Below, in pieces: positions 10,595 to 40,500 of a stretch of DNA of 64,000 nucleotides. Source of the DNA: Bactericera cockerelli. Its lineage: Eukaryota > Arthropoda > Insecta > Hemiptera > Triozidae. Numbering within the stretch: position 1 is the stretch's first letter; every line of letters begins with the position of its first letter. The stretch is taken from positions 20,786,668 to 20,850,667 of the forward strand of contig CM044960.1 in assembly GCA_024516035.1 (NCBI GenBank). The letters are read 5' to 3'. A program made the position numbers and the translations under genes. Below the pieces are notes generated by a model. That model was not told the origin of the DNA. It made no database searches and saw only the letters and a list, made by a program, of their open reading frames with translations.

Positions 10595-10690
10595 CGATCC
10601 CTTTTTACCGGGGAAACTAAAAAACACATCGGGGCCGTTGCGTTGCGGCATCTGCCTGAGCACATTGAGCAATTTAGTGGAATGTCGGGG
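10595..10690 (-). CDS. Nbea: Neurobeachin (rugose/Nbea) exon
   Basis: The exon has 96 bp, 32 codons in phase 0. The acceptor is at 10691-10693 (ctctgtttcag) and the donor GT at 10593-10594 (tcggtaagtgat). The translation runs [19 protein letters not shown] then [35 protein letters not shown] is a signature of neurobeachin/LRBA at the junction of the armadillo-like region and the lectin domain; the W is the last codon of exon 15196-15296. A 33-copy minisatellite begins 26 bp upstream of its acceptor. Confidence 0.97.
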
Positions 10691-10716
10691 CTGAAACAGA
10701 GGAACGACAAGGACAT

Positions 10717-11842
10717 GGTTAAATCTACTAGACAAGGGAAGGGGCACATCTACTAGACAAGGGAAGGGGCACATCTACTAGACAAGGGAAGGGTTACATC
10801 TACTAGAAAAGGGAAGGGTTACATCTACTAGACAAGGGAAGGGTTACATCTACTAGACAAGGGAAGGGGCACATCTACTAGACAAGGGAAGGGGCACATC
10901 TACTAGACAAGGAAAGGGTTACATCTACTAGACAAGGGAAGGGTTACATCCACTAGACAAGGGAAGGTTTACATCTACTAGACAAGAGAAGGTTTGGATC
11001 TACTAGACAAGTGAAGGGTTACATCTACTAGACAAGAGAAGGGTTACATCTACTAGACAAGAGAAGGGTTACATCTACTAGACAAGAGAAGGGTTACATC
11101 TACTAGACAAGAGAAGGGTTACATCTACTAGACAAGAGAAGGGTTACATCTACTAGACAAGGGAAGGGTTACATCTACTAGACAAGGGAAGGGTTACATC
11201 TACTAGAAAAGGGAAGGGTTACATCCACTAGACAAGGGAAGGGTTACATCTACTAGACAAGGGAAGGGTTACATCTACTAGACAAGGAAAGGGTTACATC
11301 TACTTGACAAGGGAAGGGTTACATCTACTAGTGTGTATGATTTTATTTGTGGTGAAGCACAAGGCCTCTTCACAATTTTTGTGGGTAGCGCAGCATTGCT
11401 AAAAGCCTCCTTCACATTTCGAATTATTCTAGTATATTCATTTCTTTTTACTCTGGTAATGCCGCCACTGGTCGTTACTCATACAAGTAACTACTCATTT
11501 TTCCTCACAAGGTATGAGTGGACCCCGAACATCCAAGTACAGAGCAGAAATATTCCTGCTCCGCTGGGAATCGGACCCAGGTCACCATGCGTGCAATGCC
11601 TAGCGCGCTAACTCACTCTGCCATGGTGACAAGGGAAGGGTTACATCTACTAGACAAGGGAAGGGTTAAATCTACTAGACAAGGGAAGGGTTACATCTAC
11701 TAGACAAGGGAAGGGTTACATCTACTTGACAAGGGAAGGGTTACATCCACTAGACAAGGGAAGGGTTACATCTACTAGACAAGGGAAGGGTTACATCTAC
11801 TAGACAAGGGAAGGGTTACATCTACTAGACAAGGGAAGGCAT
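10717..11842 (-). repeat. 25-bp minisatellite, about 33 copies, abutting a splice acceptor
   Basis: On the minus strand the consensus unit is tgtaacccttcccttgtctag plus taga. I count about 25 units between 10717 and 11330 and about 8 after the SINE insertion (11631-11842), with few substitutions (gagaagg, ggggcac, aaaaggg variants). Each unit carries a branch-point-like tgtaac, a pyrimidine run and an AG. The array ends 26 bp from the exon at 10595-10690. Its edge unit contains tttaacc, a good candidate for the real branch site, 29 nt upstream of that exon. Confidence 0.95.
11331..11630 (-). mobile_element. tRNA-derived SINE (family 2) inserted in the minisatellite
   Basis: The 300-bp copy is about 90 percent similar by eye to the SINE at 23964-24277. 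Its minus-strand head is gtcaccatggcagagtgag with ggcattgcacgc downstream, and its B box has mutated to ggtccgattcc. It splits a minisatellite unit (left flank acatctacta, right flank aagggaagg). No clear target duplication is visible, and the first bases of the SINE head (tagta) seem to be missing. Confidence 0.88.
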
Positions 11843-15195: not shown

Positions 15196-15296
15196 CCATT
15201 TATTATTCACAGCCTTCATGGCAGCAAAGAATAGTTTCAACTCTTTGACGGTAATACTATAGCTGGCCAGAACGCCCATCATGTCGATTAGAAGAT
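15196..15296 (-). CDS. Nbea: Neurobeachin (rugose/Nbea) exon
   Basis: The exon has 101 bp: two bases (AT) completing the GAT codon split from exon 19041-19167, then 33 codons. The acceptor is at 15297-15299 (gttggttgcag) and the donor GT at 15194-15195 (tgggtaagtatg). The translation runs [20 protein letters not shown] then [31 protein letters not shown] is among the most conserved strings of the N-terminal armadillo-like region of neurobeachin/LRBA. Both splice sites are strong and lengths match vertebrate relatives. Confidence 0.97.
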
Positions 15297-18200
15297 CTGC
15301 AACCAACAAGAAGGTAGGTAAGTAAATTCTCATAATTCGAACAATAGTAAAAAAAAAAAATTATTAAAAAAAAGGTATGAATTGACAAAAGGCGATGATA
15401 ATAAGTATAGAATGTATTGTATCCATGCAATGATAGTAAAATTACTAACTCGAGATGTGCTTATTGCTAATGGAAGTTTTCTTCCTTGGACCTCCAAAAA
15501 GTGGCCTTTAGCAACAAAATGAAAAGGAGCACTTAACGTTATAATTCAATCCCCCAGGTGTCGGTTAGCTCATCTCCAAAATTATAAATATAAGTAGATA
15601 TCAATTTCTGTACTGCTGTGGAACAAGTAACATCCAATAGGTTGACACTTAATAACTTGAAAGGATGAGAAATACCTGTTGTTATTCAAACAAAATTGTG
15701 AAGAAGTAAAATTGCTGTATTTTGTTTGATATAAAAAGTATGGAAGTACTTCGACGAGAGATTTTAACTTTCTCTGTGAAGAGAAATATAAAAACCCTAT
15801 TATTAGTACATTTCTGTAAGTAGCTAGGATCAGAAGAGAGGGATATACTATAAGGATCCGCTTCTCGGGAAAGAATGTGGAACGCCTGATAACAAATCCC
15901 ATGGGTTTCTTCATTGAAAATAATGTAGTTACCGAACAAATAAAGACCACACTTGAAGGTGACAAAAGTAGAAATCATAATAATGAGATTTTCTCCCCCC
16001 CCCCCCTATTTATCATGATGTGTTTTTATTATGATTTCATACTTCAATGAGTGTGACGGGGAAAAGGGTCAGAATTTTTTTCAGCAAAAGAGAAGAAAAC
16101 GGTATCCGAACAATAACATCTTAGATTTGATGTTTCATTTTTCTTCTGCTCTCTCTACCTTTGTATTTGTTTTCCTTCAAGGGGAATTGCTGTCCCTTTC
16201 GGAAAATTGAAAGAAAATATTTGTTCTTATTGTACGCTATTTTCTTCTGCGAGTTCAGGATGAAGCTAGTTCCAGGAAAAATTTCCATAGTAATACATTT
16301 ATATAAATAAATATTGAAAAGTATTTTACAACTATTCTACAAAGTATCTCTAAAAGATGAAAAAGAGAAAAATAAGAGCATTATTGAGTTTGTTCGTTTT
16401 GAGAAGGAGAAAAGCTCCAGTTTATACCTATAGGGAAAGATCAATGAATAAAATTGAAATACTTCGACAACAATAAGGGGAAGTGACTAGAGCTATAGGG
16501 AAAATATAACAATAACAACAAATGATTGGTAAAAATAAATTCAATGGTCTAAAAAATAAATACTTACTCACGAACAAAGAGAAAAAGGAAAGAAAATGCA
16601 AACATACTCTTTCAAGAGTATGATTAATTTTTAACGAGGGGGAAAATTTGAAAAAGAAAAATTAATTCAAAGATAAAAGAATTAAATAATAGGTAATTAA
16701 GTGTATTATTGTATATGTATTCAAAATAAAGAAATTAGAATACGAAATGTACTTTAGCACATAGCAAAACATGAAAATCTGTTTTCAAAATCTGTCGCTG
16801 CAGTGCGGAAGGCGCGGCGTTTATATCTATCAATGAATTAAATTCCTCTAAATCTACCCACCACCATCCGCGATAAAGATCATAGCTAGGTGAGGTGTCT
16901 GATACTTACAGACCCCCACTGGAAAGACCATAGCTAGGTGAGGTGTCTGATACTTACAGACCCCCACTGGAAAGACCATAGCTAGGTGAGTTGTCTGATA
17001 CTTACATACCCCCACTGGAAAGACCATAGCGAGGTTAGGTGTCTGATACTTACAGACCCCCACTGGAAGGATCATAGCTAGGTGAGGTGTCTGATACCTA
17101 CAGACCCCCACTGGAAAGATCATAGAGCTAGATGAGGTGTCTGATACTTACAGACCCCCACTGGAAAGATCATAGAGCTAGATGAGGTGTCTGATACTTA
17201 CAGACCCCCACTGGAAAGATCATAGAGCTAGATGAGGTGTCTGATACTTACAGACCCCCACTGGAAAGATCATAGAGCTAGGTGAGGTGTCTGATACTTA
17301 CAGACCCCCACTGGAAAGATCATAGAGCTAGATGAGGTGTCTGATACTTACAGACCCCCACTGGAAAGATCATAGAGCTAGATGAGATGTCTGATACTTA
17401 CAGACCCCCACTGGAAAGATCATAGAGCTAGATGAGGTGTCTGATACCTACAGACCCCCACTGGAAAGATCATAGAGCTAGGAGAGGTGTCTGATACTTA
17501 CAGACCCACACTGGAAAGATCATAGAGCTAGATGAGGTGTCTGATACTTACAGACCCCCACTGGAAAGATCATAGCTAGGTGAGGTGTCTGATACTTATA
17601 GACCCCCACTGGAAAGATCATAGAGCTAGATGAGGTGTCTGATACTTACAGACCCCCACTGGAAAGATCATAGAGCTAGGAGAGGTGTCTGATACTTACA
17701 GACCCACACTGGAAAGATCATAGAGCTAGATGAGGTGTCTGATACTTACAGACCCCCACTGGAAAGATCATAGAGCTAGATGAGGTGTCTGATACTTACC
17801 AGCCACCACTGGAAAGATCATAGAGCTAGATGAGGTGTCTGATACTTACAGACCCCCACTGGAAAGATCATAGAGCTAGATGAGGTGTCTGATACTTACA
17901 GACCCCCACTGGAAAGATCATAGAGCTAGGAGAGGTGTCTGATACTTACAGACCCACACTGGAAAGATCATAGAGCTAGATGAGGTGTCTGATACTTACA
18001 GACCCCCACTGGAAAGATCATAGAGCTAGATGAGGTGTCTGATACTTACCAGCCACCACTGGAAAGATCATAGAGCTAGATGAGGTGTCTGATACTTACA
18101 GACCCCCACTGGAAAGATCATAGAGCTAGATGAGGTGTCTGATACTTACAGACCCCCACTGGAAAGATCATAGAGCTAGATGAGGTGTCTGATACTTACC

Positions 18201-19040
18201 AGCCACCACTGGAAAGATCATAGAGCTAGATGAGGTGTCTGATACTTACAGACCCCCACTGGAAAGATCATAGAGCTAGGAGAGGTGTCTGATACTTACA
18301 GACCCACACTGGAAAGATCATAGAGCTAGATGAGGTGTCTGATACTTACAGACCCCCACTGGAAAGATCATAGAGCTAGATGAGGTGTCTGATACTTACC
18401 AGCCACCACTGGAAAGATCATAGAGCTAGATGAGGTGTCTGATACTTACAGACCCCCACTGGAAAGATCATAGAGCTAGATGAGGTGTCTGATACTTACA
18501 GACCCCCACTGGAAAGATCATAGAGCTAGATGAGGTGTCTGATACTTACCAGCCACCACTGGAAAGATCATAGAGCTAGATGAGGTGTCTGATACTTACC
18601 AGCCACCACTGGAAAGATCATAGAGCTAGATGAGGTGTCTGATACTTACAGACCCCCACTGGAAAGATCATAGAGCTAGGTGAGGTGTCTGATACTTATA
18701 GACCCCCACTGGAAAGATCATAGAGCTAGGTGAGGTGTCTGATACTTATAGACCCCCACTGGAAAGATCATAGAGCTAGGTGAGGTGTCTGATACTTATA
18801 GACCCCACTGGAAAGATCATAGAGCTAGGTGAGGTGTCTGATACTTACAGACCCCCACTGGAAAGATCATAGAGCTAGGTGAGGTGTCTGATACTTACAG
18901 ACCCCCACTGGAAAGATCATAGAGCTAGATGAGGTGTCTGATACTTTACCAGCCCACTGGAAGATCATAGATGCTATAGGATGTCTGATACTTACAGACC
19001 CCCACTGAAAGATCTAAGCAAGATGAGGGTTGATACTTAC
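15297..19040 (-). other. Neurobeachin intron (3.7 kb) with a splice-donor minisatellite
   Basis: The donor-proximal 2.2 kb is the 48/50-bp minisatellite at 16875-19040. The remainder (15300-16875) is AT-rich, with a C homopolymer near 15999-16010 and two overlapping minus-strand frames at 15582-15978 that lack any recognisable domain. Confidence 0.85.
16875..19040 (-). repeat. 48/50-bp minisatellite (about 43 copies) carrying a 5' splice site
   Basis: The plus-strand unit reads gaggtgtctgatacttacag then acccccactggaaagatcat and agagctag. The first five units (from 16881) have a 48-bp period, then units are 50 bp because of an extra AG, with one 48-bp unit at 17571. I count about 43 units. 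On the minus strand each unit reads ctttccagtggtggctg (or tgggggtct) followed by gtaagtatcag. That equals the last bases and donor of exon 19041-19167. Variants are arranged in higher-order blocks: a gagag/cacact type near 17490, 17690, 17930 and 18280, and a ccagccacc type near 17800, 18050, 18200, 18400 and 18550-18600. Four units (near 17590 and 18690-18800) have lost the GT (acttata). Confidence 0.96.
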
Positions 19041-19167
19041 CAGTCCCCACTGGTCTGCGTGCGGCAGTCTATTAGGACATGCTCTATCAGGCCATTATTC
19101 TGTCACAGCCTGCAATTTCCTCACTGACTTCCAGCAGTGTTGGCGATGTTACTGACCAGATCTCCGC
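19041..19167 (-). CDS. Nbea: Neurobeachin (rugose/Nbea) exon, sequence damaged by indels
   Basis: The acceptor AG is at 19168-19169 (gttggcttgcag) and the donor GT at 19039-19040 (ctggtaagtatc). The length, 127 bp (42 codons plus one base), is exactly what the family and both neighbouring exon phases demand. Yet the frame opens with AEIWS and is then broken. Fragments in shifting frames give KSVRKLQ, GLIEHVL and RLPHAD, all in the right order for the AEIWS...KSVRNLQ...GLIE.VL armadillo-like segment of neurobeachin. I need about ten single-base insertions or deletions with a net sum of zero to restore it. That pattern, next to a tandem array, suggests uncorrected long-read sequence more than a pseudoexon. 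A 84-residue frame running through it from 19341 is intron read-through. Confidence 0.85.
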
Positions 19168-20080
19168 CTGCAAGCCAACAAGAAACCAGTCAGTTATCGA
19201 TAAAACTTTATGTGAAAGCAAATAATAATGTACCATTTTTTTTATCAATGAAATGTACCATACATTATCTATTTTACATCTACTAAACATACCAAGACAG
19301 TTGTTTAGGCTACTGCTTCCTGTGAGGCCGGAGCTGTACAAGACAGTTAGGTTAAGACTTTTATGATATTGTTATTCTTCGTTATTTACTTCTTTGACTT
19401 TAGGCAAATAAAAAGGACAAAGTATTTCGATAAATAAAATTTCTCACACATCCATTTAAATTTTGAACCATGGTCTCAAATACTAGGTATTCCTCATTAC
19501 AAGACACAGGTTGTAACCACTATTTTAAAGTCATTATAACTTTAGAACAGTGTAATAGTGGAATTATTGTAGTTTCCAACTAGCCACAATGGAAAGTATG
19601 GTGAATATGAGGAAAAACGTAATTATAATATAATTATGCACCTTTCTCCCCAGTCAACAATTCACTCGCACTTGTACACATTGTGCGGCATATCCGAGTT
19701 GGAAATTCCAAAGTCGTAACTTTCGCAAATTTGAGCCCATTACCTCATACAAGAGACTTACAAGGATTTATAATCACGTACTTAAAAGTTACTTGAACTT
19801 GGAAGTAAACTTTGAGAGTATCTAATTATTCTCTTAGAATGTAAAGTTAAAAGTTAACGCCCTCAAATTGTACTGTCAAAAGAAAACATTTCTAACGCTA
19901 TTGTGAGATTACAACTCCCGGAAATTTCAAGATAATTGGTGCGTCAGTCATGTCTATCGTACCTGATTGACAAAAGGTTCTATGGTATGACGTGAATAAA
20001 CCCTTTTACATCAAAGGAGGAAATTTTGGACAAGATATTCAAAGGTATTTCATAGTTTTTAGAAAATTCGAATACATAAT

Positions 20081-22175: not shown

Positions 22176-23963
22176 AGGGATGATTGTTAGGCCAATAAAT
22201 TAGAAGTAGGGAAGTAGCTTAATATTTCACACATATTAAATTAGAAAATGTGCAAGCCTCAAACATGAAGGTACGAGAAGCAATGACTGTCAAATTTATG
22301 CACGAAAGAGTATGATGGTTTGTGGAGGTTTTGGGTAATAACGCCTGTTACCTATAATTCAGAAGAGAATAATGTTGAGGCCACGCGGATCACATCTGAT
22401 CAAGCCTTGTCTCTGTAATAACTCTATAACCAAACTAGAAGTCAGTAGTAGGTTACTCTATCCGGTGGAAAAGTTATATATTATTCCAGTTATATCTAAG
22501 AATTTTAGTGAGATATTATTGGTTTTGAAAAGTCTTTTATTGCAAAAGGGAAGAATTGAGAATCGTTTTTGACATCATTAACATAAAGAGTTATGCCTGA
22601 ATTGTGAATTTAAAGACACATAAGAGCAAATTACCAGAACCTAAATATAGGAACTTGAAAAAAGATTTTTATTATAAATTAAAGTTGAAAGAGATGTACA
22701 TGAAGAAACAAGTAGAGGGTATCTTGGGGAAGAAATACAGAAAGAAAACCAGTATGAAAGTTTTGAATAAACAAGAAATTCAGAGAATTGGTGGCTCTAG
22801 GAGAAGGAAGAGAGGGAGATATGAGAGAGGGAAAAGCGTGAGGTATGAGAGGAAAAAGAAAGGAAAACAAGAAAAGACAAGCAAAAGTTTAAAATTCAAA
22901 TAAAAAGCAATTAAAAACATTATTTTTCTTTTTTCTCCTACCCAAGCCCTTTCTCTAATATAGAATTCAAAAATATTCTCATTATTCAGTGTAACTTTTT
23001 TATATTATTATTAAAGTCATATATAACCTTAACTGAGGATGTAATAAAAGCAAGACAAGAAAAGATGTAGAAGGAAAAAAAGGGAATATTCAGTGTCGAC
23101 TTAAATCTGCTGATTACCAGGATCGAGATCATAAACTATTGATTATAACGTACCGAAAAAGAAAGAAAAAAAAGTAATTGTTATTTTTTAGCTATGTACC
23201 TAACTTCGGCGGAATTTTGCTACGTCACCGAAGTTGGAATTCCGGCCAAGGATCAAACATGATTTGAACATTTAAAAAAGAAAAATTCACTGCAATTTTT
23301 GTAAAGCTGTTTTGAGTATTTTTAAGCCGAAAAGGATAATGTACAGAATGTGGGAGAGAAAGAGAGAACTAACAAGAAAGAAAATGGGATTTTCAGTGTT
23401 TTCTATGTAGGTAGTGAAACTATAAAATAATGAAATGACCAAGTGGGATAATAGCAGAGGGGAGTGGAAGAGTTCAAGACGTTCTTGCTTTAATTCATTG
23501 TTATTGCCCCTTGTGTCGTAAATTATACAGAGCTTTAGGTTCAATGGTTCTGGCTCCAAGAGAAGATAAGGGAGACAAGGAAAGAAAAAATAATAACGAG
23601 GGTTTTATTGCCATTTAATGGGACTCGAATGGGATTTTTTCTCTACGAAAACGACACAAGAGAAGAAAGATATTTCCGTAAGTAGTTAGTGTAAGTGCTC
23701 TGGGATGATGGAATTAACTCACTAGTATTGGGTAAATAGTTTTCACTTTCACAATCTCATTATTTCTCTCGCTTTCTCTTAAAGTTTAAATTTATAATCA
23801 ATTAATTTCCGCATCGTTCTAAATCGCTTACTTGGTCATCATGGTTCCAAGATTTCTGTACCAATGTTTCCTCAAACAAGTTATACAAAAAGAGGAGGAA
23901 AATTCAAGAAACAAAGAAAATGGAGAAGTAGAATCTGATCCAGGAGCCAAACACACATTCATT

Positions 23964-24277
23964 GTATGTATATGTATGTACGAATTTCTTTGTGGTGAAG
24001 CACAAGGCCTCTTCACAATTTTTGTGGGTAGCGCAGCATTACTAAGAGCCTCCTTTACATTTCGAATTATTCTATTACATTAATTTCTTTTTACTCTGGT
24101 AATGCCGCCACTGGTCGTTACTCATACAAGTAACTACTCATTTTTCCTCACGAGGTATGAGTGGACCCCGAACATCCAAGTACAGAGCAGAAAAAATCCT
24201 CCCCCGCTGGGAATCGAACCCAGGTCACCATGTGTGCAATGCCTAGCGCGCTAACTCGCTCTGCCACAGTGACTACT
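23964..24277 (-). mobile_element. tRNA-derived SINE (family 2), full length
   Basis: Minus-strand head tagtagtcactgtggcagag with gttagcgcgctagg, and B box gggttcgattccc. A 14-bp target duplication, aacacacattcatt, flanks it at 23950-23963 and 24278-24291. The intact TSD makes it the reference copy for the family. Confidence 0.92.
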
Positions 24278-37545: not shown

Positions 37546-40500
37546 TAAGGAAACACCTAATGCAAACCAAACTTGATTTAAATAGAAAAACTATATGAAA
37601 CAATTCATATAGTTTTCGAGAAATCAATGTGAAAATTAACATTTTAACATAGGTAGAACTGCTGCAAATGATCCTGAGAGAACCTATTTGAGATCTCCAA
37701 CATTTTGTATGGGTAATCTTTCAACACCAGAATGGTATAATCTTTTTTCCATGTGATGGCTTAAAATGTTTTCCATAAAAAATAGGTCCGAGTTGACAGG
37801 TGTGTAAATGGTGTCACAAAAAGTGACGTATTTAAATAATAAAACATTAAGTTTGTGTCAGACGGATTGAGTGAGCGGGAGAGAGAGGAGATTTATGAAT
37901 GTTTCATACAACAACAGAGAACACTAACCTGGAAGAAGAGAGAGAGGGGGGAGGTAAAAGAGACTAAAAAAGCTCACCTCACCTCCAGAGACCCATTTGT
38001 TATTAGGGAAAGAGGGGGGTGGGGGAGGTAGTTCAACACAAATTTGCATACAACGAGGAGAGGTATTTTATTTTTAATTTGAGGAACAAGAAGGAGGTGA
38101 TAATTGTGCAAAATATTGTTCCCGCCATCTTGCTACGAGCAATGGAAATTATAATTCTCCTCCGACGAGCATTTAACTCTCTTTTTTACCATCACTTGTA
38201 AAATGTTGGACTATAATAATGAAATTCTCTCTTGCCTTAGTCTCTCTTGTATTTATTCTCTTTTCATTAGTCTCTCTGCACCAGACAATTAGGCTCCCCC
38301 GCCCTTCCCCTCCTCCTGCTCTGCTGTGATTTAACCCTTTAATATACACTTTTAAATGGGCCACCAGAAAGAGATTCAATTATTTGATGTATATAAGTAT
38401 AAGTAGTGCTTTTATAAGACTGTCAGCGCAAAATAGGTAGTCCCATTAAATTAAATTGATTGCAACGTTAATATTATACGAGTACAATAAAAATTAGATT
38501 TTTAGATTCATTGAAAATATTGAGAGAAAAAATGAATCAAACTCATGAGATTTCCACTAAAAGTTTGCATCAGACATCTCCAATGTTGTACCCTTGTGAG
38601 CAACATCGCAGTGAGCTTTACTTTTTGTTTTTTTTTTTTTTTTTCATAACTTTTCTCAAGTTTGGCGCATTGCAACTTTCAAGGGACGTACTTCATGTTT
38701 GCATAATATCTGTCATAAATATTTTGGTTCATTTTACAAATTTCAAAGTTCATAGTCTCAAGTGTTCATTTTTTTCTTCTTCTTTTTTCTCATTAAAAAG
38801 TCGGGTTTAAACTTATTATACACGTATATAAAATAAATTTTGTTTTACAGAGTTCAAAGGATTTGTGCGTATCAAAAGTTTACTCGGGAAGCCTTTTTTT
38901 AAAGATCAAAAGATGTTTAAAATAAAAAGGCTGCTAATTCTGATGCTCGAATACAAATGTGGAAGGCTCACTTCGACTAGCAAGATGCTTCCTGGAATCT
39001 TAATACATTTCATCAAATAAATAAAAGATCTGAGAGAGCGAAAAGAGCTAGGGAGAGAAAGGAGGATGAGAAATATACGGATCTTATTTAGGTGTGACAA
39101 ATAATATAGAGTGAAGATTGAGAGGATAAGAAAGAAGGAAGAGGTAAAGGGAGAGTGAGACAGACTGTGTTGTGATGTTTTAATTGAGATGATCCATCAT
39201 CGGGAGGGGCGGGGCTCAGGTAAGTGATGGGGTACAGGGACAGGGGCGTTATGAAAGTAGCTGACGGGGAAATGCTTGACAAGGAGAAGGAATTTTATCA
39301 TCAATCTTACATTGGGACATGGACCCCGTATAGCTGTATCGTATACTCGTATACATAGTTATGCATTAGGTATGTATAATAAATTACCACTTATGCTTCT
39401 CAGTATTAAATATGATAAAAATATTGGTAAGTTAATATGATTATAAGAAAAGAATAATATAGGTAGCTCGGATACTTTATCTCTAATGAGTGAATTTTAT
39501 ATTTAATAAAAACTATTATCGTGTGGCACGTGTAGCTATTATTGTTTGTACATTAGCTAACTTTAAGCACTGATCACAAATAAATTGATGAGAATCCACC
39601 CCCCAAAAGATTGATATCGCTACTTTTGTGTGTGTGTTCTTCAAGGCTTGGTGAGGCTGCAATAAGACCATGTCTTAGTTCCGTTAGAAAGAACATGTAA
39701 ACAGCTAAACTTTTAATATATGTAAGATAGAAAAATATTAGGATCACACACTTGAACCAGTCACGGGACAGACATGTTGGCATGACGTTGTGCTGGACTG
39801 TGGCGGATTTAGGAACCACTTGCTCATCAAGACGTGTTGGTGTCGGCAAGATAAAACAAATCTGAGCTGAGAAATAAAAGTGCAAATCTCCCCACACAGC
39901 ACGTTATACCACTAGCAGAAGCTTTTGCTATTTAGATGCAAATTGATAAAAGCCAATTTAACAGCACATACTTGCCTCCCACCGTCCTGTCCCCGTCATA
40001 ACACCCATTGTAGTCAAGAAATTGCTATGGAGGGAGGAGGGAGATAGAGGAATAAAAATGTGATAGAAGATTTCGAGAAACAGGACAAGAGGGAGGACGA
40101 GAAAAATACATTTTTCCACGGATTTTCTTATATTCTTTCTTCTCCCTCTTCGACTTACATCTGGGAAAGGCGCGAAAAAGAGTGGAATAAAAATGATTTA
40201 TAAAAAGTAAACATAAGTTTTGTTACTTCCCCATTCCTTTTGTTATTTTTCAAATTTGAAGTGGTCAGGTTTGAGAAGAGATTGCGTATTCTTTGTAGAG
40301 TCGTATTGTTGGGATATTTAGTCAAGTTTGAAAGATAATTAAAAACAACTACCGTATGATGTTTATGCTAGCACTGGTGGAATACTGACTCTTTTTCTAA
40401 TAATGACTCGCCCACAATTAAATTCCAATCAACTCCAATAATGTTATTACATTGAAGCATTATTCTTTACCTTTATGAGCTACCAGGGAAAAGTAAAGGG

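Follow-up and report, generated by a model that had tools for sequence, protein, structure and literature searches.

The N-terminal part of a neurobeachin gene lies on the minus strand of the DNA analyzed here, a stretch of 64,000 nucleotides from Bactericera cockerelli (contig CM044960.1, positions 20,786,668 to 20,850,667; hereafter the window). A tblastn search with a human sequence gave matches above 25 bits near 42.4, 15.3, 10.7, 6.9, 4.2, and 1.7 kb, and nothing above 25 bits at 19.1 kb, where the gene has a broken exon. Using for the Pfam and protein searches a query of 267 aa assembled from exons of the window, we found the neurobeachin alpha-solenoid region (PF20425, Neurobeachin; E = 3.8e-6, 26.6 bits, cut-off 23.1) followed by a concanavalin A-like domain (PF13385, Laminin_G_3; E = 2e-6, 28.5 bits, cut-off 27.6), the arrangement that marks neurobeachin (NBEA/rugose). 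Of 472 candidates, 313 proteins matched the same query at E ≤ 0.001. The 120 matches listed include a neurobeachin-like protein of Teleopsis dalmanni and Apis florea neurobeachin, each aligned over 69% of the query (90% and 88% identity, respectively), and a krill protein with 82% identity across the full query. The Pfam domains and the identity to the Apis florea protein bear out the earlier note on this DNA, made from the letters alone, which had named the gene neurobeachin. A PDB search with two short queries found no relatives, and scans of the window returned no Rfam match at gathering thresholds and no tRNA.

The exon at 19.1 kb measures 127 nt, which is the length that the orthologues require (42 codons plus 1 nt), and in the nine arthropod orthologues aligned to it the D is preceded by VVA in six and by IVA in three. 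The next exon, whose open frame was checked by translating 15197-15305, begins AT-CTT after ttggttgcag and completes the split D codon as GCT G|AT, so that GTGGTGGCTG|gt fits as the end of the preceding exon. Translated, the last intron bases before this next exon give L-V-A by coincidence, and the tblastn match extends into them; judged from the sequence, the intron end is set by the polypyrimidine-rich ...ttcttgttggttgcag and by the phase.

Table 1. Positions of the neurobeachin exons and of the array features in the window
Feature	Position	Strand	Basis
Exon AEIW...VVA + split D codon	19041..19167	-	Frameshift-tolerant alignment, 9 arthropod orthologues
Next neurobeachin exon, open, donor TGG|GTAAGTAT	15196..15296	-	Sequence, tblastn match, open frame
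Tandem array	16873..19053	- (gene strand)	44 units; TRF and segmentation
Unit 1: end of the exon with its own donor (intron starts at 19040)	19008..19053	-	Edits vs A-type consensus
Stretch with six clean A-type units (10, 11, 14, 18, 21, 26)	17763..18612	-	Segmentation, unit typing
Indel-rich patch, units 1-3 and exon	18912..19167	.	Indel events and frameshifts

The 127-nt exon runs into a minisatellite that TRF reports as a single array (16875-19053, period 50, 44 copies, 94% matches). Segmentation on the gene strand yields 44 units, from 19053 down to 16873, with a total of 53 edits against three consensus forms, and the last two bases at the 16873 end may already be flank. The unit is 50 bp long, with 13 nt of exon end and 37 nt of intron start around a donor core, and a 48-bp form with a shared 2-nt difference is found in unit 30 and units 40-44. 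The sequence GTAAGTATC occurs 37 times in the window with both strands counted, always on the minus strand and between 16901 and 19040, compared with a mean of 0.55 and a largest count of 3 in 100 dinucleotide shuffles. TRF, segmentation, and the shuffle control thus confirm the array of donor-bearing 48/50-bp units on the gene strand that the earlier note had described; of its count of about 39 of 43 intact donors, the 39 stands, while the total is 44 when the exon's own donor is included. The intact cores read GTAAGT or, in units 33 and 40, GTAGGT, and the five altered ones read ATAAGT (units 6, 7, 8, and 30) or GTAAAGT (unit 3).

Three forms of the unit can be told apart by their exon parts, as form A reads CCAGTGGTGGCTG|GTAAGTATCAG..., form B reads CCAGTGGGGGTCT|GTAAGTATCAG..., and form C is a variant of B, the intron parts of all three being identical or nearly so. 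Typing of units 4-43 (40 of the 44) gave six A, four C, and four with ATAAGT, the remainder being 22 other B units of 50 nt and four units of 48 nt. In the six clean A-type units the exon end is VVA+G to the letter and the donor is CTG|GTAAGTAT; they are interspersed among B and C units. In the type string, B-A-B-C-B blocks recur at units 13-17, 20-24, and 25-29, indicating recent block duplication. Directly past unit 44, at 16800-16872 on the minus strand, the intron reads CGCGGATGGTGGTGGGTAGAT, possibly a worn, incomplete unit.

The array overlaps the exon-intron junction. Unit 1 (46 nt) takes in 13 nt of exon end followed by 33 nt of intron start. It differs from the 50-nt A-type consensus by 7 edits, of which 6 are single-base indels in one alignment, whereas the nearest places elsewhere (the window outside 16801-19200, both strands) are 17-19 edits away. 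Upstream of 19053 the letters of the exon cease to match the unit, which places the break in register 13 nt inside the exon. Six clean units carry GTGGTGGCTG|GTAAGT exactly, and A-type units read GTG GTG GCT G where the assembled exon reads GTG GGG ACT G. The minisatellite therefore spans the junction with a unit that holds both exon end and donor, and from its sequence an origin by tandem duplication across this junction is well supported. The seed was most likely the exon end and donor of this exon, as the earlier note had proposed on the argument that the exon must end in GTG GTG GCT G (VVA plus the split D codon); this ending is what six of the nine orthologues show at the protein level and what the A-type units carry to the letter. 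An array that grew beside the exon from an unrelated sequence, and resembles a donor by chance, is scarcely credible: we found no support for it, and a GTAAGT-like core alone is expected at any donor, but the likeness extends over all 46 nt of unit 1, the 13 exonic nt included, and in the register of the array. Chance likeness between unit and exon end was rejected on the edit distances given above. Under the junction-duplication origin, about 50 bp of DNA, comprising 13 nt of exon end and the initial 37 nt of intron, would have been tandemly duplicated, and would then have grown by unequal exchange or slippage to about 44 units, downstream from the true donor.

As assembled, the exon at the head of the array is broken. 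Alignment to each of the nine arthropod orthologues demands four frameshifts (two +1 and two -1), and with frameshifts forbidden each of the nine alignments contains four stops. The disturbance extends into units 1-3, which measure 46, 47, and 49 nt by segmentation and together (142 nt) show about 13 indel events against the consensus in an alignment that took unit 2 one base longer than the segmentation does; if the 2-nt difference common to the 48-nt units is set aside, units 4-44 hold one private single-base indel (unit 6). Given that the exons near 42.4, 15.3, and 10.6 kb are each open in one frame, the frameshifts are local. The most likely explanation is an assembly error, in that the indel-rich patch at the edge of the array was badly sequenced or badly joined. 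A point against this is that the broken exon is exactly 127 nt long, so that the errors must cancel in gains and losses.

The frameshifts might instead be real, the exon copy having decayed while a functional exon lies elsewhere, or the gene being broken in this individual. Such decay would agree with the recurrence of the four frameshifts against every aligned orthologue and with an exon end that departs from VVA and reads V-G-T. We nevertheless regard it as improbable, since the three other exons are open, the indels end sharply after unit 3, which better fits a local sequencing problem, and no convincing second copy of the exon is present in the window. The best other match there scored 20.0 bits by tblastn (E 0.26, 38557-38607) and 22.0 bits by blastn (E 3.1), in a search where the broken exon itself reached only 18-20 bits in pieces by tblastn and an equally broken copy could escape; an intact second exon within the window was accordingly rejected as a candidate. 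Returning to an assembly error, we take type A to be the true form of the exon end, because unit 1 without its indels is a near-perfect A unit. Of the junction as drawn in the earlier note, the seed holds, but with the exon and units 1-3 broken the fine detail is not to be trusted.

The donors of the array fall well short of uniform strength. In units 4-43, six of 40 have CTG|GTAAGT, with the exon-end G, and 34 of 40 have a T before the donor, four of these having also lost the GT. Taking U1 pairing energy alone as the measure of strength, which is a weak predictor of donor use, we obtained -11.0 kcal/mol for the A-type donor, -7.3 for the B-type, and -4.4 for ATAAGT, with four other donors of the same gene at -10.1 to -12.2 kcal/mol. 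Outside the array the gene strand has 3531 GT sites, of which 15 reach the strength of A and 94 that of B. From U1 pairing, the downstream array donors are thus predicted to be fair to good. The earlier note had spoken of dozens of strong U1 sites; this agrees with the 39 intact cores and overstates their strength, as only six of the 40 donors in units 4-43 keep the exon-end G and the majority B-type pairs more weakly with U1 than the four other donors scored.

Competition between the downstream donors and the true donor is plausible. If a later donor were used, the intron part of unit 1 would stay in the mRNA, and reading past donor 1 meets a stop after 32 nt in the consensus (after 95 nt in the assembled letters), which makes donor 1 the only one likely to give protein. 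Unit 3, 91 nt downstream of donor 1, resembles an A-type unit with indels and may be a strong competitor at that short distance. Selection for weaker donors near the exon was considered, as units 4-9 contain no A-type donor, and was rejected because the indels of unit 3 probably conceal an A-type unit. The exon's own donor would most likely still be the productive one: it is transcribed first, is nearest the acceptor of the exon, pairs better with U1 than the majority-type copies, and alone keeps the frame in the consensus. Downstream donors may occasionally bind U1 and give rise to low-level extended transcripts, which would end at the stop codon within the first unit and be degraded.

Alternatively, the array could be regulatory, its dozens of decoy donors taking up U1 and setting the share of productive neurobeachin mRNA, with array length tuning expression. 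In keeping with this, most donor cores are intact, GTAAGTAT forms 8 contiguous pairs with the U1 5′ end, and read-through in the consensus runs into the stop. A like-built human array, the CBS VNTR, has also reportedly been linked to reduced enzyme activity, going by the title of Lievers et al. 2001. We consider a regulatory role unlikely, as most typed donors have lost the exon-end G, some of them with the GT, and recent duplication accounts for the intact cores; we saw no sign of selection keeping them. The array is probably mostly neutral, and would be tolerated rather than adaptive.

A second minisatellite, of 25 bp, lies on the minus strand in the intron preceding exon 10595-10690, the next but one after the 127-nt exon, with about 33 copies in two pieces (10706-11331 and 11628-11839, by TRF), and ends 15 nt before the acceptor of that exon. 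A large share of its units contain CCCTTCCCTTGTC-TAG, which by appearance resembles a polypyrimidine tract followed by an acceptor. It has no exon overlap, unlike the donor array, and its acceptor-like look and placing may be coincidence. That the splice-signal minisatellites of two successive introns act together as length-variable decoys setting productive neurobeachin mRNA seems to us very unlikely. The 25-bp array is split at 11332-11627 by an element of about 300 bp that looks SINE-like, with tRNA-like boxes seen by eye (ARAGORN reports no tRNA), and its translation is in part similar to a stretch at 23831-24079.

Taken together, these results are probably best explained by a duplication across the junction, with the first donor productive, the array mostly tolerated, and the frameshifts and indels likely due to assembly error. 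The array constitutes a natural test of donor choice, in which about 40 near-identical donors follow one exon at a 50-nt spacing and divide into two principal classes of strength; the readout is clear, as only the first keeps the frame in the consensus. It also serves as a warning that assemblies may misrepresent an exon that adjoins a long array.

A search of the unit, as one degenerate pattern, in viral contigs gave no match. In the available text of open-licence PMC papers there was no recognisable report of a neurobeachin minisatellite, and the literature there on tandem repeats or VNTRs with donors and on multiple 5′ splice sites gave no match either. The earthworm metallothionein genes have intronic minisatellites, and the portion of that text available mentions no donor array (PMC12783039). 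This kind of array has a published precedent that the earlier note did not mention, the human CBS 31-bp VNTR, c.1444_1467+7(16_21), at exon 13-intron 13 (PMC2630376). We take this notation to mean that each unit has 24 exonic and 7 intronic nt. In both arrays the unit joins exon end and intron start, and the junction is copied in every unit; the CBS VNTR has 16-21 units of 31 bp and is length-polymorphic in people, while the neurobeachin array, in one assembly, comprises 44 units of 48/50 bp, with 13 nt of exon and 37 nt of intron. Intron gain by tandem genomic duplication creates a new intron inside an exon, unlike the neurobeachin array, where a donor already in place has been multiplied at the head of the intron it opens. 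The two are alike in that tandem duplication copies splice signals, the duplicated segments in intron gain containing AGGT (PMC4974935). A tandem copy of a splice junction is likewise found in human CBS 844ins68, where the intron 7/exon 8 junction is duplicated and the cell strongly favours one copy (PMC2630376). The units of the CBS VNTR differ by single substitutions (PMC2630376, PMC1395315). By analogy with the CBS precedent and its shared architecture, the neurobeachin array appears to be a striking new case of a known kind, rather than a new mechanism.
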